A stretch of 56,925 nt of DNA from Spirochaetes bacterium ADurb.Bin133 (GTDB lineage: Bacteria > Spirochaetota > GWE2-31-10 > MWDO01), in NCBI GenBank assembly GCA_002070605.1, contig MWDO01000013.1, positions 1 through 56,925 of the forward strand, read 5' to 3'. This document shows positions 20,733 to 52,236 of this stretch, in pieces. The notes beneath the pieces were generated by a model, which made no database searches, had not been told where the DNA came from, and worked only from the letters and a program-made list of their open reading frames with translations. The position numbers and the translations under genes are program-made. Positions within the stretch are counted from its first letter, which is position 1, and every line of letters starts with the position of its first letter.

Positions 20733-20858
20733 CCGCCGGTTTTTTGGGGACGAGGAAATAAAATGACGCATATGCGTCAATTTTATCCTCAACATCATAT
20801 GCGTCAATTTTTTTTTCCACAAAACATCGCATGCGTCAATCCCCAAAAAGCCGACGGG
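20733..20858. mobile_element. 126-bp element with inverted ends and CATATG cores
   Basis: The left end CCGCCGGTTTTTTGGGG (20733-20749) and the reverse complement of the right end, CCGTCGGCTTTTTGGGG (20841-20857), agree at 15 of 17 positions. Inside are a full palindrome GACGCATATGCGTC (20765-20778), a half site CATATGCGTC (20796-20805) and a variant CGCATGCGTC near 20828. No coding capacity. It lies between the 5' end of the Fe-S flavoprotein gene and the 3' end of the thioredoxin-like gene. Confidence 0.75.
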
Positions 20859-20885
20859 ACGCGGAGCTTTATTCTTTTTGGAGTT

Positions 20886-21743
20886 TTATTCTTTGGCGTT
20901 TGAAAGATAATCCGTTTCAAGTTGTTTTAGATAATTTTTCCATTCTTCGCTTAGTTTGTCCCCTTTTAACGAATCCGCAATAAAAAGTTTAGCGGCGTCA
21001 ATTTCGTTATTTAACAACAAAGCGAGAGCGTAATAGTAAACCGAATAGTAACGAACTTCATCGTCCGCCTTATAGTCTAAAAGTTTGTAGAAATACTCTT
21101 TAGCTTTCGGAAAATCCGCCATTTGACCGTAATAATTGCCTATTCCCAAATAAATAACGCCTAATTTATCCTCTTTTATAAGATTCATACCGTTAAGTTT
21201 CTCAAATATAGGAAGGGCTTCGTCGTATCTGGACGATTTTAATAGAATATCCAGCAATTCGGAAGAATTCTCAAAATTATCCTCTTTATACTCCCCCATA
21301 AGTCTGTTAAATTTACCTCTAATCGTAAAAACGTTCTTCATTCTCTCTAAAAACGCCTCGGCGTTGAGAAATCCGCCGATTGAATCTACAAGTTGACCGT
21401 TTGGCTCGACAAATAGTATTGTCGGAAATCCTGAAATATTATAAGGAGCAAGATATTCGCTCGCTTTTTGGTCGGTTTCAGGATTTATCTTCAAATTTAC
21501 AAACATTTTAGACTCTTTTATAACGTCTTTGTCAATATAAGTCTCCTCGTCTAACTTTGAGCACCAACTGCACCAATCGGCGTAAACGTCTACCATAACG
21601 AGCTTGTTCTCTTTTAGCGCTAATTCGTTCGCCTTATCAACGTCTGTAAGCCAATTTATCCCTTTAACGGTTTTCGTTGAAGAACTATCTTTACACGACG
21701 CCAAAACCGACGCAAAAATAAATACAATTATAATCTTTTTCAT
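20886..21743 (-). CDS. Thioredoxin-fold lipoprotein with C-terminal helical repeats
   Basis: The 285-residue protein starts with a lipoprotein signal (MKKIIIVFIFASVLASC, lipidated C17), so it is exported and membrane-tethered. Residues about 30-145 are a thioredoxin fold with active-site C58-S-W-C61 in DVYADWCSWCSK and the cis-proline loop SGFPTILFV. This resembles the DsbD gamma-domain and SoxW-like thioredoxins. Residues about 150-285 look like TPR-type helices (GNYYGQMADFPKAKEYFYKLLDYK). It probably reduces or rearranges disulfides of exported proteins. AGAGG precedes the ATG. It appears to be a single gene; no DsbD/CcdA partner is nearby. Confidence 0.85.
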   Translation of the reverse strand: MKKIIIVFIFASVLASCKDSSSTKTVKGINWLTDVDKANELALKENKLVMVDVYADWCSWCSKLDEETYIDKDVIKESKMFVNLKINPETDQKASEYLAPYNISGFPTILFVEPNGQLVDSIGGFLNAEAFLERMKNVFTIRGKFNRLMGEYKEDNFENSSELLDILLKSSRYDEALPIFEKLNGMNLIKEDKLGVIYLGIGNYYGQMADFPKAKEYFYKLLDYKADDEVRYYSVYYYALALLLNNEIDAAKLFIADSLKGDKLSEEWKNYLKQLETDYLSNAKE

Positions 21744-21883
21744 TGTCGCCTCTTTAAAAAATATAATGTTTAAAATCCGCTAAATATTAGCATAATAAAC
21801 TATAATTCACAATAATAAGTTAGAATATTATAGAAATATTTTTTTTGACGTATCTCTCAGTTTTTGATTGTTAAGCGCGTTTA

Positions 21884-21914
21884 TTAGTATATTCAAAACG
21901 GGAATTCCCGTTTT
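21884..21914. repeat. Second copy of a palindrome-plus-tail repeat
   Basis: AAAACGGGAATTCCCGTTTT (21895-21914) is a perfect 20-bp palindrome. Together with the adjoining TTAGTATATTC it repeats, inverted, the 27-bp sequence at 14351-14377. The gap 21744-22033 shows no other feature apart from the ribosome-binding site of the next gene. Confidence 0.7.
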
Positions 21915-22033
21915 TTAAGAATTTCAATTTTAATCTCAAAATAAATAAAATTTTTTAAAAATATTTAGAAATTTTGTAAAGAGTTTTGAAGAAAAAATTG
22001 TTAATTATAGTATTAAATAAAAAGGAGTCAAAA

Positions 22034-22348
22034 ATGAACAAAAAAGTAAACGAGTTAAATTTAAAGGGTAGGATTTTGAATAATCCGATAGTTAATGAGA
22101 AAGACAACGGAAACAGAATTTTTTCTTTCGATCTCGAAGTCGATCTTACGCTAAAAGACGATAAACGCGGCGATTTGAGAGTCGCGTCGATTCCGGTTAA
22201 TTTAAAGAATCCGTTGATCAAAAAAATTGGGGATAGTCTAAAAAAGAATAAAATAATCTCGGTAGAAGGTTGGTTAAGAGCGCAAGGGGAATCAAACGTT
22301 TTCCTCGAGGCGACCGATCTCGAAGTTCTTAATTATTGCTGGGGTTGA
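22034..22348 (+). CDS. Small SSB-like OB-fold protein
   Basis: The 104-residue protein resembles the N-terminal OB fold of single-stranded DNA-binding proteins. It opens MNKKVNELNLKGRILNNPIV, has an internal beta-rich stretch with FSFDLEVD, and ends with the SSB-like pattern KIGDSLKKNKIISVEGWLRAQ. It has no acidic C-terminal tail, so it is shorter than replicative SSB (about 150-180) and probably not the main cellular SSB. An upstream in-frame ATG at 21986 is rejected because AAGGAGTC sits 5 nt before the ATG at 22034. It is a lone gene convergent with tgt. Possible roles are recombination, competence or plasmid-type DNA handling. Confidence 0.72.
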   Translation: MNKKVNELNLKGRILNNPIVNEKDNGNRIFSFDLEVDLTLKDDKRGDLRVASIPVNLKNPLIKKIGDSLKKNKIISVEGWLRAQGESNVFLEATDLEVLNYCWG

Positions 22349-22358
22349 GTATTTATTC

Positions 22359-23510
<1,152 letters not shown>

Positions 23511-23624
23511 CTAAATAACGTCGCTAATTACAACATTTTCCCGACGACCGTCTTTATTATAAAAGAAACCTGATTTTCGCATATAATTTTATTTTTGTCA
23601 ATTTGGAAAAATTCAGCGAAAATA

Positions 23625-24205
23625 CCCGTGTTTTTTAACGGGAAATAAATTCGACGCATATGTGTCGCATACCGCCGCGCCGCTCCCCGAAGGAAAATTG
23701 ACACATATGGAGCTATATGCCGCGCCGCTCCCCGACGAATAAATTGACACATATGGAGCTATATACCGCCGCGCCGCTCCCCGATAAAAATTGACGCATA
23801 TGGAGCTGCATACGCCGCGCCGCTCCCCGATAGAAATTTGACACATATGGAGCTGCATGCGCCGCGGCTACTCCCCGAAGGAAAATTGACACATATGGAG
23901 CTATACCCGTCGCGGCGCTCCCTGCTATAAATTGACACATATGGAGCTATACGCCGCGTCGCCGATAACGCGCCGCTCCCCGATGAAAATTTGACGCATA
24001 TGGAGCTATATGCCGCGCCGCTCCCCGAAGGAAAATTGACACATATGGAGCTATATGCGCCGCGCCGCTCCCCGATGAAAAATTGACACATATGGGTTGC
24101 ATACCGCCGCGTCGCTCCCTGATGAAAAATTCGACGCATATGCGCCGCGCCGCTCCCCGACGAATAAATTGACACATATGGAGCTATATACGCCGCGCCG
24201 CTACA
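23625..24205 (+). repeat. Tandem array of about 12 CATATG-core units
   Basis: The gap between tgt and the PBP1A gene (762 bp) is nearly filled by this array. GAC(A/G)CATATG cores start at 23653, 23700, 23746, 23793, 23840, 23888, 23934, 23993, 24038, 24085, 24133 and 24171. Spacing is 45-48 bp except for one of 59 and one of 38. Each unit reads roughly AATTGACACATATGGAGCTA then TATGCCGCGCCGCTCCCCGA and a short variable A-rich link. The left edge (23625-23649) resembles an element end (CCCGTGTTTTTTAACGGG then AAATAAA). Several frames stay open through the array but encode only repeat-derived peptides, so no gene is called. Confidence 0.9.
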
Positions 24206-24220
24206 ATTACAATTTTTACG

Positions 24221-24249
24221 TTGACATAAGAGAATAAAATGGATATAAT
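24221..24249 (+). promoter_or_regulatory. Consensus sigma70 promoter of the PBP1A operon
   Basis: TTGACA (24221-24226), a 17-bp spacer and TATAAT (24244-24249) are a perfect consensus. Transcription would start near 24256, only about 8 nt before the GTG start codon. The repeat array ends about 15 bp upstream. Confidence 0.85.
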
Positions 24250-24263
24250 TTCGGGTAAGCGCA

Positions 24264-26492
24264 GTGAAAAGAAGAATAATTAAAATAATACTATTTACTA
24301 TACTAACAATCGTCTCCGTAGCATTTGTAATCGGTTTATCATACGTCGGCGCGGTTTATATGGAGTTTTTATCAAATAAAAATTCCATATTTGAAAAAAT
24401 AGAGCTGTTTGCTAAGGATCTTCAAAGAAACAAGGAGTCCGATATTACGCTCGGATTGGAAGAGGAGGAGATAGACGATATTGATAAAAAGGAGACGGTT
24501 TTCCTCGATAGAAACGGCTCGATCATAACCAAGTACTCAAAAGAGAGGCGTAAACTTATCCCCCTCCGCGAAATACCGTATTTTGTTACAAAAGGATTCA
24601 TTATTATAGAGGATCAGAGGTTTTACGATCATTTCGGTATAAATGTAGTTAGATTTGGCATTGGAATTTTTAACAACATTGTTACTTTCGGTAAAGCCCC
24701 CGGCGGCTCTACAATATCGCAACAACTGGCAAAAATTTTGTTTACAACTCACGAACGCGCGTTAAAAAGAAAGGTTTATGAGATATTCTGCGTTTTCGAA
24801 TTGGAAAAAAGATTTACAAAAGACGATATACTTACGATATATTTAAACTCAATATTTCTGGGACACGGAACTTACGGAATTCAGGACGCGTCAAATTTCT
24901 ATTTCGGTAAGGACGCCGGCGAATTATCTATAGGCGAAGCGGCGTTGCTAATAGGAATGAACAGATCTCCGGAGAGGTATTCGCCTATAAAATATCCCGT
25001 AAAAGCCCGTAATTTACAAATATCGATTCTAAATCAGCTAAAAAACAGGGGCTTCCTTGATAAGAATGAGATTGATTACGAAGTATCCAAATTTTGGACT
25101 AATTTTGAAAACAGGAGCATGGGCGGCAGTCAATCGTTTTGGAAAACCGAAATCAACAGATCGGGTTATATCACGGAATACATTAGGCAAACTCTTGAAA
25201 AAAGTTTCTCTTACGACAAAATTACGGAGGGCGGTCTAACCGTCGAAACGACTATCGATTTGGAAAAACAGAATCTCGCGGAAAACATAGTATCCGAGCA
25301 GTTAAAATATATCAAAAATAAAATCGTTAAAACTGCCGAGAGGGCTAAACTTAAAGGATATGAAGAAAAAGATCTAAAAGACCTTGAAGCGTCGTTAGTT
25401 AGCGTAGATTTCACGACAGGAGAGGTTACCGCTATCGTCGGAGGATCAAACTATACATTTTACAATCAGTTTAACAGAGCGCTTTACGCGCGCAGATCGA
25501 TCGGTTCTTCGGTCAAGCCTTTTATATACTCGTACGCGCTTAGTAAAAAGAGACTAAAGGATAAGGAGATCAATCCTTTTACTAAGTTTAAAGACGAGCT
25601 TGTGGAATACAACATTAATGGAAAAAAGTACGCTCCAAAAAACTATTCCGCCAACCACAAATACGGGAGTTACGTAACTCTTTACGACGCTATGAAAAGA
25701 TCTCTAAACACGGTCGCCGTCGCCGTTCTCAACGATCTCGATATAAAGGAGACCGCCGACTTTATTAGAAAAGCCTCTTTCTTGGTCGACGAGGAGAATA
25801 AAAAAAGAGTCCCCGAAGTGCTTTCGCTTGCCTTAGGCACTTGCGAGATGTCCGCTCTGGAGTTGGCGACGGCTTACTGCATATTTCCGCGGGGAGGCGT
25901 TACGGTTTATCCGGTAATAATCAAAAAAATCTACGACTCCAAAGGCAACGTCTACTACGATAACGCCCGCGCTAATAATCCTTATTTCGACGACCTTTAT
26001 CCTGCGGAATTCAGAAATAACGAAAGGATACTAAACGAAGAGGTCGCCTACGAAACGACGCAGATGTTGAGAAGCGTTTTTGAAAGAGGCGGCACGGCGT
26101 ACGGAGCGGCTTTTAAGACCGGTTTTACGACCCCCGCATTTGGGAAGTCGGGCACAAGTCAAGACTATCGCGACGGCTGGTTTGCGGGATTTACAGATAA
26201 CGAAGTAACCGTTACCTGGGTCGGAATGGACGGCGGCAAATCGCTTCTTCAACCAAGCGAATCAAACGCGGCGATTATTTGGTGCGAGTATGTGAAGCGA
26301 ACGTCCAGAAACGATACAGATCAAATTAAAATTCCAAATAATATGAAATTATATAAAATTTGCGAAGAAACCGGACTACAGGCGTCTGAAAACTGCCCCG
26401 TTATCAAAAACTTTTATTTCTGGATGGACGGCCCGATTCCCGAGAATTGTTATATTCATAACGAACAATATTTTCCAAAAATAAGCGAGTAA
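24264..26492 (+). CDS. Penicillin-binding protein 1A, bifunctional peptidoglycan synthase
   Basis: Inner-membrane enzyme that polymerises and cross-links peptidoglycan. The 742-residue protein has an N-terminal membrane anchor (about 6-30). Its GT51 glycosyltransferase domain shows catalytic E116 in IIEDQRFYDHFGI, GGSTISQQLAK and KRKVYEIF. The transpeptidase domain has S415-x-x-K418 in IGSSVKPF, SLN in KRSLNTVAV and KSGTS at 628-632. Length and order match class A PBPs (mrcA/ponA). The start is GTG with no clear ribosome-binding site and a very short leader. It is the first gene of a rightward run with three membrane or lipoprotein genes, 4 bp before the next start. Confidence 0.95.
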   Translation: MKRRIIKIILFTILTIVSVAFVIGLSYVGAVYMEFLSNKNSIFEKIELFAKDLQRNKESDITLGLEEEEIDDIDKKETVFLDRNGSIITKYSKERRKLIPLREIPYFVTKGFIIIEDQRFYDHFGINVVRFGIGIFNNIVTFGKAPGGSTISQQLAKILFTTHERALKRKVYEIFCVFELEKRFTKDDILTIYLNSIFLGHGTYGIQDASNFYFGKDAGELSIGEAALLIGMNRSPERYSPIKYPVKARNLQISILNQLKNRGFLDKNEIDYEVSKFWTNFENRSMGGSQSFWKTEINRSGYITEYIRQTLEKSFSYDKITEGGLTVETTIDLEKQNLAENIVSEQLKYIKNKIVKTAERAKLKGYEEKDLKDLEASLVSVDFTTGEVTAIVGGSNYTFYNQFNRALYARRSIGSSVKPFIYSYALSKKRLKDKEINPFTKFKDELVEYNINGKKYAPKNYSANHKYGSYVTLYDAMKRSLNTVAVAVLNDLDIKETADFIRKASFLVDEENKKRVPEVLSLALGTCEMSALELATAYCIFPRGGVTVYPVIIKKIYDSKGNVYYDNARANNPYFDDLYPAEFRNNERILNEEVAYETTQMLRSVFERGGTAYGAAFKTGFTTPAFGKSGTSQDYRDGWFAGFTDNEVTVTWVGMDGGKSLLQPSESNAAIIWCEYVKRTSRNDTDQIKIPNNMKLYKICEETGLQASENCPVIKNFYFWMDGPIPENCYIHNEQYFPKISE

Positions 26493-26496
26493 ATTT

Positions 26497-27705
26497 ATGA
26501 AGGTATTCTTATTATTATTTTGTATTATTATATTTTCATGTTCAAAAGTCGATAAGGCGGACTACAATCTCTACCAAAAAAGATTGACGGACGTTGAAAA
26601 CAACGACGATAGAAATTCGGCTTGCTCGACGACTACTCAAAATTGTATCGCCGGTTTTTTTAATAATAAGGGTTCGATCGGCGACAAAGATTTTTACAAC
26701 ATTTCGGTTAGTCAAAAAAACAGCTCTTATAAAATGCTCTTAACTTCGGTACCGGGGATTGATTCAAAGATTACCGTCTATACCCCTCGCGGCAAAATTC
26801 TATTTACCGTCGATGAAAACGGCAGAGGCGAAGGCGAAAAATTGTGGGAATATTATCCAAGCGGAGACGTCATATTGCTTTCGGTTGAAGCAAAAACAAA
26901 CTACAACGAAACGGTTCCTTATTATCTTAATTTTGAAGCGAAAGGGAGGGATAGCGTTGAAGAGATAGAGCCGAATAACGACGAGTCAACCGCTATTAAA
27001 ATTGATATCGGCGATGAAAAACGGGGGCTTATTTCTCCAAAAAACGACTTTGATTATTACAAAATTCAATTAATCGACGGACAGAATTACGACTTTGAAA
27101 TACGGCTTGAAACGTTATCAAAACTGGATCTGAATATGACTATTTACGACAAAGACAACTCTATCCAGAAATTTATCAACGCTAATTCATGGGGAGGAAC
27201 CGAGATATTCTCGTTTTTATCTTCAAAGTCAAAAGTTTATTATATTCGCGTCGGCGGCTCGGTAGATAAATACGACAAGATGGATCCTAAATATACCTTA
27301 TCTGTCAAAAAACTTGATCCTATCTATGTCAACGGAGTAGAGGCTTTCTATGAAAGAGAATTTAACGACGTTATCGGCTTAGCGACGGATATGATAAACG
27401 CTGCGGAGTATATAGGCGCGCTCTTCCCGGAGAACGACGTCGATTGGTATAAATTTGAAGTACTAAAAAACGAAAATATAGTCAACATCTCTTTATCGGG
27501 AATAAGAGGATTAGATCTAGTTTTAGAAATTTATGACAAAAACGGTTCACTAGTTGAAAAAATAGACGAAAATAATATAGACTATGGAGAATATTTTTCT
27601 GCAAACAATTTGAAATCAGGTAGATATTTCATTAAAATATACTCTAAGGTATCAAGATCGATGATAAATTATAATTTATATTATAACGTAAGGTATAAAA
27701 AATGA
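26497..27705 (+). CDS. Lipoprotein with pre-peptidase C-terminal (PPC) domains
   Basis: The 402-residue protein has a short lipoprotein signal (MKVFLLLFCIIIFSCSK, probable lipidated C15). Three similar beta-sandwich blocks of PPC type follow, each with the pattern EPNND...A..I, then DFDYYKIQL, a polar loop, Y(Y/F)IRV or FIKIYSK. The blocks lie at about 45-150, 155-270 and 280-400. PPC domains usually sit beside secreted peptidases, but no peptidase domain is present, so this is probably a surface or periplasmic binding or structural protein. It starts 4 bp after the PBP1A stop and overlaps the next gene by ATGA, indicating one transcript. Confidence 0.8.
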   Translation: MKVFLLLFCIIIFSCSKVDKADYNLYQKRLTDVENNDDRNSACSTTTQNCIAGFFNNKGSIGDKDFYNISVSQKNSSYKMLLTSVPGIDSKITVYTPRGKILFTVDENGRGEGEKLWEYYPSGDVILLSVEAKTNYNETVPYYLNFEAKGRDSVEEIEPNNDESTAIKIDIGDEKRGLISPKNDFDYYKIQLIDGQNYDFEIRLETLSKLDLNMTIYDKDNSIQKFINANSWGGTEIFSFLSSKSKVYYIRVGGSVDKYDKMDPKYTLSVKKLDPIYVNGVEAFYEREFNDVIGLATDMINAAEYIGALFPENDVDWYKFEVLKNENIVNISLSGIRGLDLVLEIYDKNGSLVEKIDENNIDYGEYFSANNLKSGRYFIKIYSKVSRSMINYNLYYNVRYKK

Positions 27706-29276
27706 TGCTAACAATAGCTATAGTCGGCGCAGTAACGATAATTTTTTTTATCGCGATTATTTTAAAAGTTGGATTTGGCGGGAATAAATCGCTAAAAAAC
27801 GGTATGAGACTCGAATCTCAAGGCAAATATCATGAAGCTCTCGTAGCGTACGATTATATCCTAAATAAGGGGTCTTCTTCGCCCGAACTGAGATGGAAAA
27901 TCGCCAACCTCGCCTTAAAGTTAAAACTTATACCGAGAGCGCAAAAAGAACTAAACGTACTGCTGGGAGCCAAAACCCTTCCCGCTAACGTGTCTCTCGC
28001 TACGGTTAAAGCCGCTATGGCGTCGTGTCTGCTCTCCGCCGGAAATGAAAAACAAGCCTTTATGGAGCTGTATGAAATTATAAAAATTGACGACTCGATC
28101 CCGTCGGTATTTTTAGATTTGGGAAAAATTTACTGCAGACAGGCAAAATCGCAAAAAGGAATTCCTCTGATAGAGAAATATCTATCTTTTAATCCTCAAG
28201 ACGGCGAGGCGGCGTTATTTTTAGGTCTTGCCTATCTGGATTACGGTCTTGCGCCAAAAGCTATCGAGGCTTTTGAAAAAGCTCTAAGGAACAAAGTAGA
28301 CGACGACGGCTCGGCTAATTATTATCTGGGAATCTTATACCTTTCGCAGAATAAAACAAACCTTGCTCTACAACATTTTACCCAAGTAATAAGAAAGAAA
28401 AAAAATCAAAAAATGATCACGGAAGCTCACCGATTAATCGGAATGTGTTACAAAGAGAAAGGGCTTATAGACGAGGCGATTACGAGTTTTGAGCAAGCTA
28501 ACGTTTTCTCAAAAAACGAACCAAAGGACGTTAAAACAAAAGAGGCTTTATATAATCACGGCGTTTTATTATACAAAAAAGGAAAATATCAAGAAGCGCT
28601 GGAGATTTTCAAAAAAATTCTACTAATCGATCAATTGTATAAAGACGTAAGAAGAATAATAGAGTCGATAAATAACAAACTCAATGGAACGCCGTCGGAT
28701 TATGCGGTGAAATTTATAGAAGACAAACCTATAAACGCTATCCTTAAAAAGGGACTGCTCCATTCGTCCGCGAGATTCGACGTAGATAGATTTGAAGCCG
28801 AGGTCGGGTCAAAAATATCCCGCAACGTAGGCGCCAAGACTAAATCCGATAAGACGCAGACCTCCGTCGCAAAATACTCCGCAGAGAAACTAAACCAAAT
28901 GGATACAAGAGAGTATAAAGAGGTAGCCAGAAAACTTGTAGCCGCCGTCGGTTTTCAGATAAAACAAGAGATAAGATTTCAAGGAGATACCGAATATATT
29001 GACGGAGCCGCGATAAATTTTTTAGTAGAACCGCTGAACGCTCAAGGAAGAAGTAAAAAGGAAACCGTTTTTACCTTAAGAAGATACCAGGACGAAGTAA
29101 GCGAGTTATCGGTAAGCAACTTTATTGATTGGATAGAGGAGAAAGAGGTTTCTCAAGGGGTATTTATAGCGACAAATCATTTCAGCAAACAGGCGTTGTC
29201 TACTATCCAAAAATACCAACATATCAAATTTATTGATAAAGTCGGACTTACAAGAATGTTAGGGAGGATCAGATGA
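27702..29276 (+). CDS. Membrane-anchored TPR protein with a C-terminal Mrr-like domain
   Basis: The 524-residue protein has one N-terminal membrane helix (about 3-24). About 300 residues of TPR units follow (GKYHEALVAYDYIL, GEAALFLGLAYLDYGLAPKAIEAFEKAL, GKYQEALEIFKKILLID). The final 120 residues resemble an Mrr-type restriction endonuclease fold (REVARKL-like helix YKEVARKLVAAVGFQI, then SQGVFIATNHFSKQAL and a final hydrophobic strand and helix). By eye the usual Q-x-K of Mrr is replaced in VFTLRRYQ, so the domain may be non-catalytic. It overlaps both neighbours by 4 bp (ATGA), so it is part of the PBP1A operon. This points to an envelope-linked role, not restriction. Confidence 0.72.
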   Translation: MMLTIAIVGAVTIIFFIAIILKVGFGGNKSLKNGMRLESQGKYHEALVAYDYILNKGSSSPELRWKIANLALKLKLIPRAQKELNVLLGAKTLPANVSLATVKAAMASCLLSAGNEKQAFMELYEIIKIDDSIPSVFLDLGKIYCRQAKSQKGIPLIEKYLSFNPQDGEAALFLGLAYLDYGLAPKAIEAFEKALRNKVDDDGSANYYLGILYLSQNKTNLALQHFTQVIRKKKNQKMITEAHRLIGMCYKEKGLIDEAITSFEQANVFSKNEPKDVKTKEALYNHGVLLYKKGKYQEALEIFKKILLIDQLYKDVRRIIESINNKLNGTPSDYAVKFIEDKPINAILKKGLLHSSARFDVDRFEAEVGSKISRNVGAKTKSDKTQTSVAKYSAEKLNQMDTREYKEVARKLVAAVGFQIKQEIRFQGDTEYIDGAAINFLVEPLNAQGRSKKETVFTLRRYQDEVSELSVSNFIDWIEEKEVSQGVFIATNHFSKQALSTIQKYQHIKFIDKVGLTRMLGRIR

Positions 29277-30211: not shown

Positions 30212-30215
30212 TTTT

Positions 30216-30749: not shown

Positions 30750-30774
30750 TAAAATTTTTCTTTTTTTTGACGCC

Positions 30775-30791
30775 CCGTCGGCTTTTTGGGG
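30775..30791. repeat. Solitary element end CCGTCGG...GGGG
   Basis: CCGTCGGCTTTTTGGGG is identical to the reverse complement of the right end of the element at 20733-20858, but no CATATG core or opposite end is found nearby. It may be a remnant of a lost element. The remaining bases up to the ABC-F gene show no other feature. Confidence 0.6.
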
Positions 30792-30889
30792 AGGAAAAAA
30801 TACTTTACTAAAGGTATCCCTGTTTTTATTTAATTTCATTGATAAGACGCCCTATTGTTCGTTCCAATTTATTATTTATTGCTCGTTTA

Positions 30890-37640: not shown

Positions 37641-37718
37641 GACGCATATGTGTCAAATTTAAAGAATCTGTCTCAACCCGCTACATATGTGTCAAATTTA
37701 TTTTGACACATATGTAGC
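37641..37718. repeat. CATATG cores forming a 17-bp inverted pair
   Basis: The palindromic core GACGCATATGTGTC is at 37641-37654. Then GCTACATATGTGTCAAA (37680-37696) is followed after 5 nt by its exact reverse complement (37702-37718), giving a 17-bp hairpin. It lies between two terminators of convergent transcription units. Nothing else is seen up to 37755. Confidence 0.85.
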
Positions 37719-41753: not shown

Positions 41754-43592
41754 TTAGTTATGAACGTCAAATTCAATAAACGCCGAGTACGGAATACTAT
41801 CTTTATAAGCCTTAACCGACAAGGTATAGCGCCCATACGAAAGAGTTGCGCTTGTTATAGTTATATTATTGTTCTGCTCTCCTGAGATAAAATCTCCGTT
41901 CAAATACCACTCCCAGCTTTCAGCTTCGTCCAGAGTAGCGGTTATCGTTACGGATTCCGATAAAGTTTTATTTAACATATTATCGAAAGCTCCAAAATCA
42001 ATCGTCGCGTCGGTCGGCGTTATAAGATTAATGTAAACGTTGGCGCTACCGACAATCGTCGTTGTTGTAGTAGTCGACGACGTAGTAGTAGTCGGTTCTA
42101 CCGTAGTCGTCGTTGTAGTCGTTGTAGTAGTAGTCGGCTCGACGGTAGTCGACGTAGTTGAATTTGACACATATGTCGACGTTGTAGTAGTTGGCGCGAC
42201 GGTTGTAGTAGTAGTTGGCGCGACGGTAGTCATTGTGGTCGTAGTAGAATTTGACACATATGTTGTCGACGTAGTCGTCGTCGGATTTGACACATATGTT
42301 GTAGTAGTAGTCGTTAATACTAAGGGCATTACCGAAGTTCTAAAAACTTTATCGACGGAAGCCGTTTCACACGATATCTTTGCCGTAAGCGAAATATAAC
42401 TAATGAAAGAGGCAGTTTGACTATGCTTTACCGCGCCCGAGTTTGATAAAACCGATTCGTTACTCGAAGTCCAGTCGATTGTAAAATTTTTTTCCATAAA
42501 GCTAAACGAAGTCGGATAAGTAACGGAGTTAACGTTTGCCGGAATAACTATTTGGTCGTAGTCGTCCATATAAATAACCGGGAATTTATTTGCGCCTAAT
42601 ATTGATTTTGGGAATTTAGCTAAAGCAAAATTTAACAGGCGCTCGGCGCTAAAGCTTTCGGCAGTCGCCTTTTCGACCGTTTTTCCGCCGACGCTTTCAG
42701 GGTTAATTGTAATAAGTTCTGTTTTAAGCGCCGAAATCTTATTACTAACTGTTCCGGTAATCTTTATATCTACGGTCGTATCGGCGATCGATACCACGTC
42801 GGTTACGGTCGCGGTATCTGCAATAATAATGTTGGGAATTTCGCCGGCGGCTTGATTGTTAAGAATAACGTTCAATCCCGACGTTTTTCCGCTCAACTCC
42901 ATCTTTGTAGCCGCAGGTAGTTTTAAAACATTGATATTATCAGATACAATATTGATATTCATTTGACTTCCCAAGTCGCCCGAAATAATATTCAGATTAA
43001 CGTTGTCGATAATAGGTTCGCTTATCTCAGTATTATCTAACTGTATCAAATTGCAGGCATTTGTGATTAGCGCGCTTTTGATTTCAATAGTGGAATTCAT
43101 TTTAACGCTAACGTTTTTCTTATTAACGTTCATATTTCCCGTTACTTTGGATTCTCCCGATATTTCAACGCTGTTTGAGCCTCCGCCGTTTATGGTGAGA
43201 TTGGTCAGAAAGCAGTTCTGTATTTTACAATCGCCGTCGCCGACGTTCTCCGTAACTTCGACGTTCGTCGCGGACAAAGAGCTTATCTTAGAACCCGTCT
43301 TATTGATTTTTAGATCGTTTATCGTTACTCCGCTCTCGCCCGATATTGCGACGGCGTTATTTACAAGATACGACCCGTCGTAGTCGCCGCTTTTTAGATT
43401 AATGTTTTTTATATTCTTATCGAGAAGGACGGCCGATAAGCCCATACTGCTCGAGACCGAAGCGGTATCTCCGGTTACCGAGTATCCGGGATCGTCTGTA
43501 TCTCCGCCGGAAGAAGGGTCGGAAGATAGTATACATCCGGCAAAAATAATAAAAAACGCCATTGCGGAAATTATAAACCTATTGAGTTTCAT
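41754..43592 (-). CDS. Lipoprotein with beta-rich body and Thr-rich linker carrying repeat-derived TYVSN
   Basis: The 612-residue protein starts with a lipoprotein signal (FIIFAGC). Residues about 45-330 are strand-rich with Asn/Ile/Ser patterns like a right-handed beta-helix. A region at about 335-430 contains IDWTSSNESVLSNSGAV, an Ig-like (Big_2-type) pattern. Residues about 430-525 are a Thr/Val/Pro-rich low-complexity linker, probably extracellular and flexible. A final beta domain ends with GRYTLSVKAY. The linker contains TYVSN three times (from 432, 444, 473), each encoded by the intergenic repeat core. It is first in a two-gene unit with the LamG lipoprotein; GGAGG precedes the ATG. 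No enzymatic motif is seen. Probably a surface or adhesin-like protein. Confidence 0.8.
   Translation of the reverse strand: MKLNRFIISAMAFFIIFAGCILSSDPSSGGDTDDPGYSVTGDTASVSSSMGLSAVLLDKNIKNINLKSGDYDGSYLVNNAVAISGESGVTINDLKINKTGSKISSLSATNVEVTENVGDGDCKIQNCFLTNLTINGGGSNSVEISGESKVTGNMNVNKKNVSVKMNSTIEIKSALITNACNLIQLDNTEISEPIIDNVNLNIISGDLGSQMNINIVSDNINVLKLPAATKMELSGKTSGLNVILNNQAAGEIPNIIIADTATVTDVVSIADTTVDIKITGTVSNKISALKTELITINPESVGGKTVEKATAESFSAERLLNFALAKFPKSILGANKFPVIYMDDYDQIVIPANVNSVTYPTSFSFMEKNFTIDWTSSNESVLSNSGAVKHSQTASFISYISLTAKISCETASVDKVFRTSVMPLVLTTTTTTYVSNPTTTTSTTYVSNSTTTTMTTVAPTTTTTVAPTTTTSTYVSNSTTSTTVEPTTTTTTTTTTTVEPTTTTSSTTTTTTIVGSANVYINLITPTDATIDFGAFDNMLNKTLSESVTITATLDEAESWEWYLNGDFISGEQNNNITITSATLSYGRYTLSVKAYKDSIPYSAFIEFDVHN
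42161..42299 (-). repeat. Three in-frame CATATG-core copies inside a coding region
   Basis: ATTTGACACATATGT occurs at 42162-42176, 42249-42263 and 42285-42299, the same 15 bases as in intergenic copies. All are in the same frame and orientation (ACA TAT GTG TCA AAT, TYVSN) within ACN-rich sequence. Confidence 0.85.
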
Positions 43593-43634
43593 TGCGAACC
43601 TCCGTATATAAAAAATAAATATTAAATATGTATA

Positions 43635-43663: not shown

Positions 43664-43851
43664 CAATAAATAGTTTTTTGCTAAAAAATAATATTTATTT
43701 CTTATTTTTACTGATTTTTAAGGTATAAGGCGTTTTGAAAAGATTTTAAGCGTCGCAAAGATTATAACGGCGCCCCTTTTGGCTCGACAATCCCCAAACA
43801 ATCTGCCGTCCAAAGATCGTCGAGTTAAATCAGAGTAAAAAACTAAAAAAA

Positions 43852-44418: not shown

Positions 44419-44572
44419 GGTTTACCTTCAAAATTTATATTAATTACATAATTTTATTTATGTTATTTATATAATTTTAAATTAAATAATCAACATTTTT
44501 TTGCGTTTTTTTGATTATTTACAATTAATACAATAAAAAAAATTATAAACAAAAAAGTAGATTATTAGGCGC

Positions 44573-44686
44573 CCGTCGGTTTTTTGGGGTGGGAAATAAA
44601 ATGACACATATGGAGCTATACGCGCCGCGGCGCTTCCCGACGAATAAATTCGACGCATATGCGTTGAATTTCCAAAAAACTGACGG
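44573..44686. mobile_element. 114-bp element with inverted ends and two CATATG cores
   Basis: The left end CCGTCGGTTTTTTGGGG (44573-44589) and the right end CCAAAAAACTGACGG (44672-44686, reverse complement CCGTCAGTTTTTTGG) are inverted copies. Inside are GACACATATG (44603), a GC-rich block CGCGCCGCGGCGCTTCCCGA and GACGCATATGCG (44652). It lies in the divergent 389-bp gap between the HTH-receiver gene and the second MCP gene; the rest of the gap is A/T-rich. Confidence 0.8.
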
Positions 44687-44807
44687 ATTACATAACAAGT
44701 AGAAAGTTTAATTGCGAAAATAAAATATTAATGATATTAAGAAAATAAGAATTTTATTCGATAATTTAATTATATCTTTTTTCAGATAGCTGCATGAAGG
44801 AAAAAAT

Positions 44808-47390
44808 ATGCCTTTAATAAAGAAAAGAACTTTAAAACTCAAATGGAGATTAATCCTTTCTATATTGCCGATAGCGATCATACCGCTAGCTTTTATAGTC
44901 TGGTTTATAAGCGCAAGAATTTTTAACCACTTGGAAAAGCAAAAACTAATATTAAACGAAACGTTGATATTTCAGGTCGCTCAAAATATAGATAAAGTCT
45001 ATCAGGATTATGCCAATAAAATTCCTCAACTTATAGAGCCTAGCGAAATAAGCGGCAATATCTATAGAAAATCTTTTGCCGATCAAACTGAATTTAAATA
45101 CATAGACGACGAGGTGGCGGGCGCATCGGGGAGTAATTTGGGGCTCAGGCATTTGTCGGTCGTTTTAAATATTCCCGGCGTTACGCACATTGTTAATAAA
45201 AGTCTTTACAATCCTAAGGACGATACGTATTTCACATACTGGCGCGGCGCCAACATGAATATTTCTCCGAATCTTGGCGTATTGATAGAAAAAGATCCGA
45301 TGTTTTTAGATAGCGTTAAAGATATTGAGAGACAATTTAGAGAAACCGGAGTCAAATCCGCCGCGTCCGTTAAAATGGGGCGCTTGTCCAGAGATACTTT
45401 TTTGGAATACGACAAATGGACTTCGATGATTTGGCCCGTTATGAATGAAAAGAGCAGCCCCGATCCCGATTCGGCAGATTTTAACGTTTTTGTTTTGTTA
45501 TTGCTCACTAACGAAGGCGAATCCGGCTTTTTGCCAAAGACCGTCTTAAATATTTCGGGTATCAATCAGGGGACTTTATTTATTCTTGACTACAAAAATG
45601 AAACGATGTATTCAAACTGGGCGGGTAAAATGATCGAACCGGAATACGATAACGATCCCGAATACGGCATCTATACCAATCTGATAACCGCCGATTACGA
45701 GATATTAAACGAGCAAATAGTTATGGACGTTTTAAATAATACCGTAGACGAAAGCAAAGTAGTTACTTCGGATTTTGGCAAACATTTTGATATATCTCAT
45801 AATGAAAAAAGAATTGAATTGATAAACGATAAAGAAGTTGAAAAGAGATACAACAATAGGTATCAGACGATTATTATCGATACTAACTATTTTAGCGATA
45901 TGAAATGCGGAGTAAAATTGGTTTATTTCTATCCAAAAGAGCTTATTTATCAGCCAATATACGTTATTCTGATACAGATATTCTTTATAACGCTGGTTAT
46001 TGTCGTGATTATTGTCGTTATATCGATATTTATCAGTAATTCTCTTGCATACCCCTTGATAACTCTCGATTATGCGACAAACAAAGTAAGTCAAGGGTAT
46101 CTGGACGTAGAGATTATCTCCGAATCAAAAGACGAAATCGGGCGTCTGTACAGAAACTTTAGACGAATGTTAAGCACAATTAATGAAGTATTGTCAAATA
46201 TTCAAAAATCGTCAAACAACCTTGTCGGATATCAAAACACTTTGGATAGAGTAGTTACGGATTTTGATACGACGATTAAAAAACAAGCCGCCTCCATATC
46301 GGAGAGTTCCGCTATATTTGAACAACTGAATTTTTCTATAAAACAGGTCGCTCAAAACGTTAAAGCGTCGCTAAATCTTGCCGAAAAAGCCAAAGACCAA
46401 TCCAGAAATTCAAATCAGATTATTACCGATATGGTATCCGAAATTAACAAAATCGCCGATAATAGTAAGGAAATTAACTTTATTACCGAACTTATTAACA
46501 ACATTTCAGAAAAAACGCGGTTGTTATCTTTAAACGCCGCTATTGAAGCGAGTAGAGCTGGCGAAGCCGGTAAAGGATTTAACGTAGTAGCGTCTGAGAT
46601 CAGGAAATTGGCTCTGCAATCAAACGAAGCGGCGAACGATATAGGCGAGCTGATAAAAATGAACGAAAAACGAATCAAAGCCGGCGTAGATAAAACCTCG
46701 GAAGCTTTGGAGGCGTTGAATAAAATAAATGAAAGTATAGAAGATATTACCAACATCGTAGGAGAAATCAATACCGCCACGGAGGAAGAGAGTAAAGGCA
46801 GTCAAGTCATAATGGATATTATCAATTCATTTTCCGAGGAAGCTAATAAAAATATTAAGTCGACCGAGGCGATTGGGAGAACCAGAAACCAACTCTCCGT
46901 AGAAGTGGATAAGATGAAAAACTTGGTCGTCGCCTTCAAACTGCAAAGCGGCGAGAAAGAGATCGTTCGCGATATAAAGATGGTAACTAGCGAAGATAAA
47001 AAAAGAATTCGACGCGAACGCGAGCTAAAAAGAAAAGAGAGACTTGAAAAAAAATCTATAGAGAGGCAGTTGAAATATGACGAAAAATATAAAAAAAAGA
47101 ACGTATCCGAATCAGATTTGGGTCTTGAAAAAAGAACAAGTAAGAAAGGTAAAATTTTTAAGGGAGTTAACGATAGCTTTTTGACAAAACGTAAAAATGT
47201 TAAAATTCCTAATAAAGTCAAATCCGACCTGTTTTTTAATAAGTATATCTCAAAGATTACTAAGGAAGAGGATAGAAATTACTTTTTGTCCAAATATAAA
47301 AAAGACGATTACAACGATAAATATATTCTTATGAGCAACCTTTTAGAGGGGGAGAAGCTCAGATTAAAGAATATCATATCAGGATTATAA
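44808..47390 (+). CDS. Methyl-accepting chemotaxis protein with a long basic C-terminal tail
   Basis: Receptor of 860 residues. It has membrane helices at about 10-34 and 384-410, a periplasmic sensor of about 350 residues of unassigned (possibly Cache) type, and a HAMP domain after the second helix ([39 protein letters not shown]). The signalling coiled coil has tip [26 protein letters not shown]. Beyond residue 720 there is an unusual tail of about 140 residues rich in Lys/Arg ([39 protein letters not shown]). The first part is probably helical. No CheR-docking pentapeptide is seen. GAAGG precedes the ATG. It lies apart from the main chemotaxis operon. Confidence 0.9.
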
Positions 47391-47413
47391 GATTATAAAA
47401 TAGTTATCCTGAA

Positions 47414-48232
47414 TTATTCTTCAATATCCGGAAGTTCTTCTATTTCGAGTTTAACCTTTTTTATTTTTCTATCCAGTATTGATTCGACGGAGAATTTTAA
47501 GTTTTTATATTGAATAGATTCGTTTTTTGAAGGAATCTTACCGAAGAGCATATATAACAAGCCTCCCACGGTGTCGATATCGTCGTTTTCAATATCAAGG
47601 TTCAGAGCTTCGTTGAGGTCTTCCAGAGACGTCTTGCCGTCGATCAGATATTTATTATCGTCTATTTTAATAATATCTTCCGACTCATTGTCAAACTCGT
47701 CTTGAATTTCTCCTACTATATTTTCAATAATGTCCTCAAGACAAACTATGCCGCTCATTCCGCCGTATTCGTCGACGACAATAGCGAGATGGATTTTCTT
47801 TTCGCGAAACTCAATTAAAAGGTCTTTAATTATTTTAGACTCCGGCACAAAATAAGGTTCTCTCAAAATATTTGATAAATCAAAATCTCTGTTTTTAGTA
47901 AAATATTTTAACAGATCTTTAGCGTGCAGAACTCCGACAATGTCGTCGATATTGTCGTTATAAACCGGAAGACGCGATCTCCCCTTTTCATCGACGATTT
48001 TAATAATCTCCTCGATCGCGCTGTTTTTGTTTATCAGCACGACGTCGATTCTTGGAACCATAATTTCCTTTACGGAAATTTCGCCTAATGAGATAATATT
48101 CTCAATCATCTTCTTATCGTAATCGTTAAAACTACTCTCAATCTCCTTTATTTTGATATGCAAAGGTTTGACCGGCGTTTTGCCCTGATTTTTTTCTTTC
48201 ATGAAAACTGATTTAATTATATTCTTACTCAA
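47414..48232 (-). CDS. CorC/HlyC-type CBS-domain protein
   Basis: The 272-residue soluble protein has a CBS pair (about 60-190: ISVKEIMVPRIDVVLINKNSAIEEII, GRSRLPVYNDNIDDIVGVLHAKDLL, AIVVDEYGGMSGIVCLEDIIENIVGEI). A C-terminal CorC_HlyC domain follows (DNKYLIDGKTSLEDLNEALNLDI, VGGLLYMLFGKIP). It has no membrane DUF21 domain, so it is the CorC form, linked in some bacteria to Mg/Co efflux. The start is a TTG with GGGAGA 5 nt upstream. It overlaps the ybeY end by 8 bp; an internal ATG at 48202 is the alternative but has no ribosome-binding site. It is the last gene of the phoH-pgpH-ybeY cluster. Confidence 0.92.
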   Translation of the reverse strand: MSKNIIKSVFMKEKNQGKTPVKPLHIKIKEIESSFNDYDKKMIENIISLGEISVKEIMVPRIDVVLINKNSAIEEIIKIVDEKGRSRLPVYNDNIDDIVGVLHAKDLLKYFTKNRDFDLSNILREPYFVPESKIIKDLLIEFREKKIHLAIVVDEYGGMSGIVCLEDIIENIVGEIQDEFDNESEDIIKIDDNKYLIDGKTSLEDLNEALNLDIENDDIDTVGGLLYMLFGKIPSKNESIQYKNLKFSVESILDRKIKKVKLEIEELPDIEE

Positions 48233-48677
48233 TTGTTTCTCCCAACATCTTTAAATATTCTTTTTGAATTGTATCCATTTCTCCGTCGTCCGTTTCGTGG
48301 TCGTAGCCCAACAAATGAAGAAACCCGTGAAGTATTAATAATTTTACTTCGGACTGAGCCGGTTTGCCGATCTCCTCGGATTGCCTAACGGCTTGCGGCA
48401 TAGATATAACTATATCTCCTATGAATTTCTTATTTGTCCAGATTATCTCTTCCCCTTCGATCTGAGAAAACGATAATACGTCCGTAGTTTTATCAATATC
48501 TCTATAATTTTTGTTGAGTTCGGTCATAGTTTTATCGTCGCAAAAAAATATCGAAAAAAAGACGTTTTCCAAACGAGCTTGGGCAATAATCTCTTTAGAC
48601 CACTCTTCTATCTCTTTGATAGAAATTATTTTTTTGTACTCCTCTTTTTGATAGCTTATATCTACAATTTTCTGCAT
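48225..48677 (-). CDS. ybeY: Endoribonuclease YbeY (rRNA maturation)
   Basis: Single-strand endoribonuclease needed for 16S rRNA 3'-end processing and ribosome quality control. The 150-residue protein has the signature HGFLHLLGYDH with metal ligands H117, H121 and H127. Upstream are TTDVLSFSQ and IGDIVIS, all typical. Length is standard. AAGGAA precedes the ATG. It lies between the pgpH-like gene (79 bp gap) and corC (8 bp overlap), as in many bacteria, which confirms the call. Confidence 0.96.
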   Translation of the reverse strand: MQKIVDISYQKEEYKKIISIKEIEEWSKEIIAQARLENVFFSIFFCDDKTMTELNKNYRDIDKTTDVLSFSQIEGEEIIWTNKKFIGDIVISMPQAVRQSEEIGKPAQSEVKLLILHGFLHLLGYDHETDDGEMDTIQKEYLKMLGETIE

Positions 48678-48756
48678 TCGCCGTTCCTTAATTTCAATTA
48701 TTATCCTTTTATTTAATACCGGTTCGCGCCGTTTACGGGGCGTATCCGGATATTCG

Positions 48757-50994
48757 CTACTCCAAATTATTCGGCAATTTATCGAGCTCTTGTTGATTGG
48801 GATATTTTATCCTGGAGTGATACATTCCGGCTAGAGATTTTACAAAAACAGCCTTGATTTTTGAAAGATCTTTTAGCGTTAGTCCCGAATCGTCCAAAAT
48901 ACCTTCTTCATAGTTTTTATATATAATAGAATCTACCATTTTCTCTATGCTAACGACCGAAGTTTTTTTTAGCGATCTGGTCGCCGCCTCGACCTGATCG
49001 GCAAGAAGCACTATCGCCGACTCTTGAAATTGAGGTTTTATTCCGTTGTAATGATAGAAATCTTCCTTAATGTCCTCTTTTGAAGAGTCGGTCTCTTTGA
49101 GGGCTTTTTCATAAAAAAACTTTATCAACGAAGAGCCGTGATGCTGCGCGACAATATCTATAACTTTTAAAGGAAATTTATGTTTTGTAAGTTTCTCAAC
49201 GCCCTTTTTTACGTGAGATTTGATAATAGTTACAGAAATAGACGGTTTTAGGTCGTCGTGAATGTTATATTCCCCTTGATTCTCGATGAAATACTCGGGA
49301 TTGTCAATTTTCCCTATATCGTGATAATACCCGCCGATTCTCGATAGCGGACCGTTGGCGTTTATCTCCGTCGCCGCAGTTTCAGCTAAATTAGCGACTA
49401 ATATCGAATGATTGTAAGTCCCAATGGCGGAGTTGAAAAGCTCTTTTAACAGCGGCGACGATAAGTCCGACAGCTCTTGCAGTCTAAAAATCGTCGGCGT
49501 ATTGATCAATATTTCTCCCGCGGAAATAAATCCTAAAGCCAAAATACTCGAAGCTACTCCATTAATCAAAGAGAAAACTACCATTCTTACCAGACTTAAA
49601 GTTTCGTTTTCCAAACTGAAATAAATAAATAACGAAGCCAAAATATTAAACAAAGATACGATAAATCCGGCTCTTATAAGTTCAAACCTCTTTGAAATCT
49701 TATTGATAATAAATACCGTCGAAACGCCGGAAAAAAAGACAAAGATAAACGACGACACGTTATAGCCGGATAATATAAAGAACAATATCGACGATAAAAT
49801 TGCGATATGAGTTGAAATGGATCTGGAGTATAAAAAAGTAAAAGTCATCGTTAAAGTAGAAGTTGGTATCAAATAACCAAAATATAAACTATCCGTACTA
49901 TATCCCAGATACGAAGGTAAAGATAAAAATAGAGAGTAAAGGAAAAACAATATGGCAAATAGTATTAAATTTTCCAGCTCTTTAAAAAAATCATTATCGC
50001 CGAGTTTGATAAAGAAGTAAGAGAATACAAATATCAAAACGATAAGCAGAGCAGTCTTTAAAAGCTTAATAAAAGAAAAATTTGAAATATTTAATTTGCT
50101 TATCGATTCGATTTGTTCTATATTTGATTCGGTAACGAGATCGCCTTTACGAGCGATTATTTGACCTTTTTTAATCGTATTGTAAACGTTCGCCTGTTTT
50201 TCTAAAACATTTTGAAGCAGTAAAGAAGTTTGAGTTTCGTCTATTAATATATTTGGAACTAAAACTCTGTTAAACATAGAGTATATTAGATTTCTTTTGT
50301 TCTTATCGTATTCTGAGAATTTAGAGTCAATATTGTCCCGTAATTCTTTTAAATTAATTGAAAATTTTGATAGTTCGTCTTGATAATAGAGAGTTTCTTC
50401 GATTCTGTTGTCGATATTGGTAATTATTATAATACCCGATTTTTCATATTTAACGTCGGAGAGGACTTTGGATTCTATTATTCCGGTTCTTGAATAGTTA
50501 AACAACATCTCTACAAACCGTTTGGTAAATTCCGGGTTTATCTCGATAATCTGTTTTATCATCTCAATTTCTTCGTAAGAAAATACTATGCCGATTTTAT
50601 AAAACTGCTCCGCCGTCTCCTTAACGTCGTTAGCGATAAAAAGTTTATCGAGCAACGTCGTCAGAATAGTTAATCTTTCGTTGGTTTTTGATATATCAAA
50701 CAAAAAAACCGGCGGAGTTTTTAATTTTAAATCGCTTATGTTTTTTTCTGTCTCGATTTTATTAATATATTTGATGTCGCTATCGGCTACGATGTCGTAA
50801 TTGACAATAGCCCCCAGCTGAGGAGCGAAGATTTTACCGATAGGTTTTAATACTATCGTTAAAAATATCGCCGCAAATAACGCAAGCGTTACGGAAAATT
50901 TAAAAAAAATATCTTTATCTTTTAAAATAATATTTTGAAAATAATTAATAATTTTGGTTGTTAATTTTTTTTTAGTTTTATTCTTTTCTTTCAT
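48757..50994 (-). CDS. 7TMR-HD membrane phosphodiesterase (PgpH-like)
   Basis: The 745-residue protein has an N-terminal membrane helix (about 33-52), an extracytoplasmic 7TMR-HDED domain (about 55-310), and seven helices (about 315-500). A cytoplasmic HD domain follows with SAIGTYNHSILVANLAETAA, IGGYYHDIGKIDNPEYF, IIKSHVKKGVEKL and IVAQHHGSSLIKFFYEKAL. PgpH proteins hydrolyse c-di-AMP, and the HD motif and architecture match. The start overlaps the phoH end by 17 bp with no visible ribosome-binding site, so translation is presumably coupled. Whether a c-di-AMP cyclase exists cannot be seen here. Catalytic residues look intact. Confidence 0.9.
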   Translation of the reverse strand: MKEKNKTKKKLTTKIINYFQNIILKDKDIFFKFSVTLALFAAIFLTIVLKPIGKIFAPQLGAIVNYDIVADSDIKYINKIETEKNISDLKLKTPPVFLFDISKTNERLTILTTLLDKLFIANDVKETAEQFYKIGIVFSYEEIEMIKQIIEINPEFTKRFVEMLFNYSRTGIIESKVLSDVKYEKSGIIIITNIDNRIEETLYYQDELSKFSINLKELRDNIDSKFSEYDKNKRNLIYSMFNRVLVPNILIDETQTSLLLQNVLEKQANVYNTIKKGQIIARKGDLVTESNIEQIESISKLNISNFSFIKLLKTALLIVLIFVFSYFFIKLGDNDFFKELENLILFAILFFLYSLFLSLPSYLGYSTDSLYFGYLIPTSTLTMTFTFLYSRSISTHIAILSSILFFILSGYNVSSFIFVFFSGVSTVFIINKISKRFELIRAGFIVSLFNILASLFIYFSLENETLSLVRMVVFSLINGVASSILALGFISAGEILINTPTIFRLQELSDLSSPLLKELFNSAIGTYNHSILVANLAETAATEINANGPLSRIGGYYHDIGKIDNPEYFIENQGEYNIHDDLKPSISVTIIKSHVKKGVEKLTKHKFPLKVIDIVAQHHGSSLIKFFYEKALKETDSSKEDIKEDFYHYNGIKPQFQESAIVLLADQVEAATRSLKKTSVVSIEKMVDSIIYKNYEEGILDDSGLTLKDLSKIKAVFVKSLAGMYHSRIKYPNQQELDKLPNNLE

Positions 50995-51931
50995 ATTTAT
51001 CGTACGCGTTTATAATTTTTTTGACCAAAGGATGCCTGACTACGTCCTTCTCTTGAAAATTGACAATACCGATATCGCTTATTTCCGACACAATTTTAAG
51101 ACCTTCAACCATGCCGCTTTTTATTTTTTTAGGAAGATCTACTTGCGTTATGTCGCCGGCTATTATTAGTTTGGAATTTTCGCCTAATCTTGTGAGAAAC
51201 ATCTTCATCTGAGTATAGGTCGTATTTTGAGCCTCGTCTAATATAACGATTGAGTTGTTGAAGGTTCTTCCTCTCATATAAGCCAGCGGAGCAATCTCAA
51301 TCAAATTTTGGGACATTAGCTTAACATTAATCTCAGTCGTTAATATCGAGTTTATCGAGTCAAAAAGCGGAATGAGATACGGATTAATCTTTTGTATATA
51401 ATCCCCGGGAAGAAAGCCGAGATTTTCGCCCGCTTCTACTACCGGTCTGGTAAGTATTATCTTGTTGTAACGCTTGTTAAGAAGTTCGCTAAGCGCGAAA
51501 GCTATCGCGATAAAAGTTTTGCCGGTGCCGGCCGGTCCGTAAGAAAATATTATATCCCTTTCGCGCAAAAGTTGAATATACAACCCCTGATTTACGCTTC
51601 GCGGATTGAATATTTTTTTGACCTTGTGAATTTCAATGTTTGAGGTTAATACGGTATTAAGATCTACGTCGAGATTTTTTTCTATTTCATAATACAGAAG
51701 CTCGACGAGGTTAGTGTAAATTTCGCCGCCCGTTTCGGATATACGCATCAGGTTTTGTAAAGTTCTTTCGACTATAAAAACATTCTCGCCTTCAAAGCAT
51801 ATCTCGTTGCCGACGGAATGAACCGAGCACCCCGATAGCTTCTCAATGCGTCTTAGATTTTTATCGTTAACTCCGCAGATATTTAAAAGAGTCTTAGGAT
51901 CTTCAATAACAAGATTCTGATTTTTAACCAT
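50978..51931 (-). CDS. phoH: PhoH-family ATPase
   Basis: The 317-residue protein has a KH-like N-terminal part and the PhoH P-loop ATPase domain. Walker A is GPAGTGKT (about 133-140). TRPVVEAGENLGFLPGD, Walker B VILDEAQNTT and LIIAGDITQVDLP follow. PhoH proteins are RNA-associated ATPases that work with YbeY; their exact activity is unsettled. It is the first gene of the phoH-pgpH-ybeY-corC cluster. The promoter lies so close that the message would be leaderless or nearly so; a weak CGGAAT precedes the ATG. Confidence 0.94.
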   Translation of the reverse strand: MVKNQNLVIEDPKTLLNICGVNDKNLRRIEKLSGCSVHSVGNEICFEGENVFIVERTLQNLMRISETGGEIYTNLVELLYYEIEKNLDVDLNTVLTSNIEIHKVKKIFNPRSVNQGLYIQLLRERDIIFSYGPAGTGKTFIAIAFALSELLNKRYNKIILTRPVVEAGENLGFLPGDYIQKINPYLIPLFDSINSILTTEINVKLMSQNLIEIAPLAYMRGRTFNNSIVILDEAQNTTYTQMKMFLTRLGENSKLIIAGDITQVDLPKKIKSGMVEGLKIVSEISDIGIVNFQEKDVVRHPLVKKIINAYDKYERKE

Positions 51932-51939
51932 ATTCCGTA

Positions 51940-51968
51940 CTTATACTATTTTTTTTTATAATAATCAA
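51940..51968 (-). promoter_or_regulatory. Candidate promoter of the phoH cluster
   Basis: On the minus strand TTGATT (51963-51968) is 17 bp from TATAAG (51940-51945). The start point would be near 51933, two bases before the ATG, giving a leaderless message. Confidence 0.5.
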
Positions 51969-51991
51969 ATTTATTTTTTATTCTGCGGTAT

Positions 51992-52236
51992 CCTGTTAGT
52001 TTTTTTGGGGATTGACACATATGGAGCTGTACGCCGCGGCTACTCCCCGATAGAAATTCGACGCATATGGGCTACATACGCCGCGCCGCTCCCCGACAGA
52101 AATTGACACATATGCGACGCATCAATAACGCGCGACAATTGTCGTATAAAATTTGACACATATGTGTCAAATTGCCCTGCGATATAAAAAAGCCCCATAT
52201 GCGTCGAATTTCTCCCCCGCCCAAAAAACCGACAGG
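51992..52236. mobile_element. 245-bp element with inverted ends and five CATATG cores
   Basis: The left end CCTGTTAGTTTTTTTGGGG (51992-52010) and right end CCAAAAAACCGACAGG (52221-52236, reverse complement CCTGTCGGTTTTTTGG) are inverted copies. Both ends are flanked by AT. Cores begin at 52014, 52060, 52105, 52155 (full palindrome GACACATATGTGTC) and 52196. CGACAATTGTCG is at 52133-52144. No gene. It occupies most of the divergent 427-bp gap between phoH and htpX. Confidence 0.82.

Follow-up and report, generated by a model that had tools for sequence, protein, structure and literature searches.

Short elements with inverted ends in the window

The window, a 56,925-nucleotide contig from the draft genome of Spirochaetes bacterium ADurb.Bin133, carries three short elements in which CATATG cores lie between inverted ends. 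The initial annotation had placed all three elements correctly and had reported the cores, which we found in each of them. Its borders need correction, however, as the arms extend 5 bases farther outward, giving 20728-20862, 44568-44691, and 51988-52240. Of the single ends that it had proposed, those at 30775 and 14646 (1 mismatch) and at 56790 (4 mismatches) were recovered, whereas at 23625 the sequence is so degenerate that it does not match within 4 mismatches. An Rfam search of the window gave no match. The features are as follows.

20728..20862, unstranded: MITE copy A, 135 bp including the outer bases of the terminal inverted repeat (TIR); two CATATG cores and one CATGCG variant; intergenic
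44568..44691, unstranded: MITE copy B, 124 bp; two CATATG cores
51988..52240, unstranded: MITE copy C, 253 bp; five CATATG cores
14199..14667, minus strand: truncated or decayed element with a right-hand TIR (14646-14667) and at least 7 reverse-oriented CATATG units; left TIR not recognised
23625..24202, plus strand: expanded internal-unit array, 11.3 copies with a period of 47 bp (23669-24202), adjoining a very degenerate end; no right TIR
30770..30792, plus strand: solo TIR without a neighbouring CATATG core
37641..37714, plus strand: relic with three CATATG cores, one in a nearly complete palindrome; no TIR
42166..42298, minus strand: three half palindromes (GACACATATG) within the low-complexity part of ORF 41754-43592
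56785..56830, plus strand: left end (gtaac TCGTCGTTTTTTTTTGGGG), then a CATATG core; homology to the sister species G001 ends just ahead, at 56783

The half palindromes at 42166-42298 leave the frame of the repetitive ORF (atrophied Ig domain) open.

A species-specific family with 8- to 9-bp target duplications

The full TIR is about 22 bp long and begins 5 bp outside the limit first assigned to it (GTAATCCGTCRGTTTTTTGGGG, GGCGCCCG...). Ahead of CCGTC, the outer 5 bases of the arms read GTAAT, GTATC, GGCGC, or GCTCT. Searching the window's own 2.99-Mb draft genome with the end CCGTCGGTTTTTTGGGG (at most 2 mismatches) returned 407 sites, compared with none for the reversed control, and the family is therefore not a product of chance. 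Among 60 relatives, the same end has 4 sites in the same-genus G001, which may thus carry a few copies, and few or none, about the level of the reversed control, in the others; it is essentially restricted to this species alone. The 22-base form is absent from the other records of the GTDB and viral collections, which may omit the window's own genome or very near ones.

To survey the elements themselves, ends were paired across 1.18 Mb (40% of the genome), yielding 58 elements. CATATG is present in all 58, and 52 are intergenic. Lengths are mostly about 80 to 420 bp; a few elements measure 780 to 830 bp, and these carry genes. One TIR-bounded element of 822 bp (L046, G000:C1:147953-148774) holds a HicA toxin gene with a DUF1902 (HicB-like) partner. 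FGE-sulfatase-like ORFs beside single ends (C1, C4) were considered as cargo and are treated here as neighbours of separate ends.

A direct repeat of 8 to 9 bp (at most 1 mismatch) surrounds 20 of the 58 paired elements, whereas re-pairing the flanks at random (300 trials) gave a mean of 1.2 and a maximum of 5. The duplications concentrate on short copies (14/25, versus 6/33 long ones), an excess that reads as younger age. A 2-bp AT duplication had been suggested for the element at 52 kb; this was ruled out, as the duplication of the family is 8 to 9 bp. The remark that the other two window elements show no clear duplication holds, and we recognised none around copy A, B, or C.

Empty sites and nested insertions indicate mobility

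The clearest evidence of insertion comes from comparison with G001. The element at C8:47120-47229 has ATTTATTT on both sides, and in the sister species the matching surroundings enclose one ATTTATTT but no element, a clean empty site. Copy B of the window is likewise missing from the orthologous G001 site (C87), where homology extends as far as the first left-arm base and picks up again right after the right arm; 24 unrelated bases stand in the element's place, so that the site is empty yet leaves no clean footprint. The elements at C4:42654 and C4:47784 are also missing from G001. At copy C, synteny with G001 breaks at both borders; the flanks lie inside two different G001 contigs, and gene order there differs between the two genomes. 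Two further elements (C5:19242-19352 and C5:7277-7397) are nested within other elements, with duplications.

Taken together, the TIRs, the 8- to 9-bp duplications, the empty sites, and the nested insertions identify these elements as MITEs. The window copies are members of a MITE family peculiar to this species, the reduced form of a DNA transposon, bounded by TIRs of about 22 bp, and hundreds of such short mobile DNA pieces lie across this uncultured spirochaete-phylum genome. The same four lines of evidence support the earlier reading of the window elements as non-autonomous mobile elements whose ends are conserved and whose interiors vary. The initial annotation had proposed a search for empty orthologous sites in relatives, which G001 supplies, and had named the lack of any such site, or ends that are mere terminators, as findings that would speak against mobility; the mobility hypothesis survived both tests.

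Longer relatives carry a gene for a predicted tandem ribbon-helix-helix protein

Comparison of the genome with itself revealed a repeated segment of about 680 bp with one 171-aa ORF. Elements of about 0.7 to 0.8 kb combine MITE-type ends and palindromes with this gene in place of a transposase. A full-length element sharing these ends, proposed earlier as a search target, thus exists, but it encodes a predicted tandem ribbon-helix-helix (RHH) protein rather than a transposase. Its own genome holds 83 matches to the gene, 56 of which are full-length and stop-free with 88 to 96% identity among the matches listed. Of the 13 matches in G001, one reaches 85% and most of the rest are near 40%; distant matches occur in two genomes of the same order (G005 and G008), and none was found in plasmids, phages, or IMG/VR. 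Several contigs terminate in this repeat, and several partial matches lie at contig ends; the draft assembly may thus have merged copies that are nearly identical. The ends of contig C7 (L071/L074, G000:C7:1-2496 and 68775-71265) form a 2.5-kb inverted repeat of 99.5% identity with internal repeats of about 200 bp.

Among 21 of the genome's own copies, dN/dS has a median of about 0.11 (0.14 when the closest quarter of pairs is taken alone), the minimum dS is 0.22, and the tree is star-like. On these grounds the resident copies look constrained, not merely recent. The TIRs around the gene copies range from good to eroded; since the ends of most parent copies are eroded and no target duplication is clear around them, the parent element may no longer be mobile. 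Intact 171-aa genes occur in elements with eroded ends, suggesting that selection on the gene outlasts mobility.

Sequence searches with the 171-aa protein found no convincing family, with RHH_1 and RHH_3 reaching E 0.04 for single members only. AlphaFold, by comparison, modelled two beta-alpha-alpha units in one chain (pLDDT 83; E5-13 H14-28 H33-44 and E72-80 H81-93 H99-126), and the protein is accordingly predicted to be a DNA-binding tandem RHH. Foldseek matches were weak, the best having E 0.58 in the PDB and 0.018 in the viral set, where the weak rows include RHH proteins. The best PDB rows, also weak, are chains of the F-plasmid relaxosome, which we take to be TraY. The predicted 171-aa protein resembles TraY and other tandem RHH proteins in its two units per chain but differs in its extra C-terminal helices and in showing no detectable sequence similarity to them; unlike that of TraY, its gene is dispersed over chromosome-type contigs, with no relaxase seen. 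No DDE, HUH, or tyrosine-recombinase core is recognisable in the predicted fold.

A CATATG palindrome links the parent elements to the MITEs

The palindrome GACRCATATGYGTC is kept upstream of the 171-aa gene, about 123 bp before the ATG. All 16 of the genome's own copies examined have an upstream CATATG core, which usually retains a GACR arm on one side or both and mostly lies 121 to 125 bp from the ATG, and palindrome and ORF are retained while the ends of the same parent elements erode. Even the divergent G001 copies have the core upstream in the 10 that were read (one weak). On the strength of this conserved association, the RHH protein most likely binds the GACRCATATGYGTC palindrome.

Beyond the gene, the palindrome is widely dispersed. 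The form TTGACACATATGTGTCAA (at most 2 mismatches) has 152 sites in the genome and 19 in G001; a variant has 8 in G002, and 18 other relatives have none. Of the 649 CATATG sites in the surveyed 1.18 Mb, 518 have a conserved arm on one side or both; scaled up to the genome, this would make about 1,300 armed cores. A small mobile element thus seems to have scattered likely protein-binding sites genome-wide. G002, of the same family, contains dispersed TTGCCACATATGTGGCAA palindromes (C154, C47), several of them listed on one contig, and no RHH homologue.

The MITEs share more than the core with the parent. A block, CATATGAAACAAATATTTTT, occurs in 17 of the 20 duplication-bearing (young) MITEs, compared with 6 of 290 in a shuffled control, and in 14 of the 20 it lies exactly 46 bp from one end, with the CATATG core at this same distance. 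The same block (at most 6 errors) precedes the gene in 13 of 16 parents. With CATATG in every paired element and the common block in most young MITEs, the MITEs look like deletion derivatives of the parent. The common block establishes the sequence relation and is no proof of the direction of derivation; that the MITEs arose by internal deletion from the 0.7- to 0.8-kb parent is nonetheless the most likely reading.

A proposed transposase acting in trans and the overall model

MITEs can as a rule be traced back to an insertion sequence that encodes a transposase. The GTAA ends and 8-bp duplication suggested IS66, which was searched for along with five other families (DDE_Tnp_1, rve, IS1, IS1595, and IS256). 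The IS66, DDE_Tnp_1, rve, IS1, and IS1595 profiles had no match in the genome, and IS256 matched two relics only, both without these ends, so all six were set aside as the source. We saw no transposase ORF between paired ends in the surveyed 40% of this draft assembly, and neither the six profiles in the genome nor the GTDB and viral collections yielded an insertion sequence bounded by these ends. A duplication of 8 to 9 bp implies staggered strand transfer of the DDE kind. From its length we infer a DDE-type transposase, and since none with these ends was found, we propose that it acted in trans.

Our model, which we regard as probably correct as a whole, combines MITEs derived from the RHH parent, a palindrome bound by the RHH protein, a DDE transposase in trans, and later spread. 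The RHH protein would bind the palindrome about 123 bp before its own ATG and might thereby autoregulate its gene; the protein could double as an accessory to transposition. Internal deletion of the 0.7- to 0.8-kb RHH-gene element would generate the MITEs. Strand transfer by a DDE-type transposase supplied in trans, and presumably lost from the genome or unassembled, would insert them mostly between genes and create the 8- to 9-bp target duplication. Repeated rounds would spread the sites genome-wide, and MITE interiors may later have grown by rearrangement and by tandem expansion of CATATG-bounded modules. The conservation of each of the 50 or more redundant gene copies is not accounted for by this model.

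Two alternatives deny or recast the mobility itself. A reading of the ends and cores as immobile features, either ordinary terminators acting in both directions or RNA hairpins, would suit their strong hairpins (z -4.1 to -6.8) and their position between genes in 52 of 58 cases. Convergent genes are not preferred, however (7/52, versus 35/276 background gaps), terminator-like sites are not in excess in the region, and the target duplications, nested insertions, and empty sites contradict an immobile origin; we therefore reject this reading as extremely improbable. Also very improbable is a REP/BIME-type nature of the palindromes, with a RAYT (Y1) transposase moving them. Like REP and CGTC repeats, they are short, numerous, dispersed, and often clustered, ending in CGTC or TGTC, but CGTC repeats are palindromes with a 4- to 5-base loop (PMC3733652), and the palindrome here is perfect and loopless. 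Nor do the TIRs and 8- to 9-bp duplications fit, and a single-sequence query with the E. coli RAYT had no match in the 1.18 Mb.

The two remaining alternatives accept mobility and assign the RHH gene another part. The tandem RHH protein could itself be a transposition protein, either a binder of subterminal palindromes working with a host or phage recombinase or an unrecognised strand-transfer protein, making the 0.8-kb element autonomous or semi-autonomous. It is the sole gene common to the longer elements, it is intact and under purifying selection in more than 50 copies, and the exact 46-bp spacing is kept in most young MITEs; the predicted fold, however, is DNA-binding with no recognisable catalytic core of the three kinds named above, and the gene persists intact where ends have eroded, which leaves this reading decidedly unlikely. 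Unlikely, too, is a mobile insertion cassette, in which an ordinary regulator was captured between the ends of a lost IS and kept for a host role, as a dispersed regulator or nucleoid-type protein, with the MITEs as separate leftovers of that lost IS. Dispersed, individually constrained copies with a star-like phylogeny would suit it, as would the persistence of palindrome and ORF, the multicopy RHH homologues in G001 and G005, and the hicA-type element, in which another gene sits between these ends. Against it, the MITEs have the palindrome and its flanking block in common with the region upstream of the gene and so are not independent of that gene.

Relation to known systems and implications

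As a MITE family, these elements are ordinary in kind: they resemble IS-derived bacterial MITEs in their TIRs, target duplication, lack of a transposase, high copy number, intergenic location, and restriction to one species. What sets them apart from known MITEs is the tandem RHH gene and the palindrome common to parent and MITEs; the longer relatives carry that gene and no transposase, and every element has the CATATG core. Mobile insertion cassettes (MICs), listed among IS derivatives without a transposase gene of their own (PMC3129680), are similar in having a passenger gene between transposon ends, as the 171-aa gene lies between TIRs here. Unlike in MICs, the passenger here is a DNA-binding-type protein with 50 or more conserved copies and a palindrome shared with MITEs, and the parental IS was not found with the six profiles or in the GTDB and viral collections.

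It is possible, though on balance doubtful, that this mobile family, which lacks a transposase, disperses sites bound by its own tandem RHH protein and so builds a genome-wide protein-DNA network. If so, some 1,300 armed cores and 50 or more individually constrained protein genes would function together as a nucleoid or regulatory system of transposon origin. The sole longer relatives to come to light have a conserved gene of DNA-binding type that is intact in dozens of copies, together with a palindrome that also occurs in the MITEs, raising the question of why more than 50 redundant copies each stay stop-free. Should binding be confirmed, the family would provide an example, open to testing, of how a mobile element can wire a bacterial genome with its own protein's sites. 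G005, from the same order, harbours a separate set of dispersed RHH copies, closely related to one another and lacking the palindrome (L081, L085, L088, L091, and L097).
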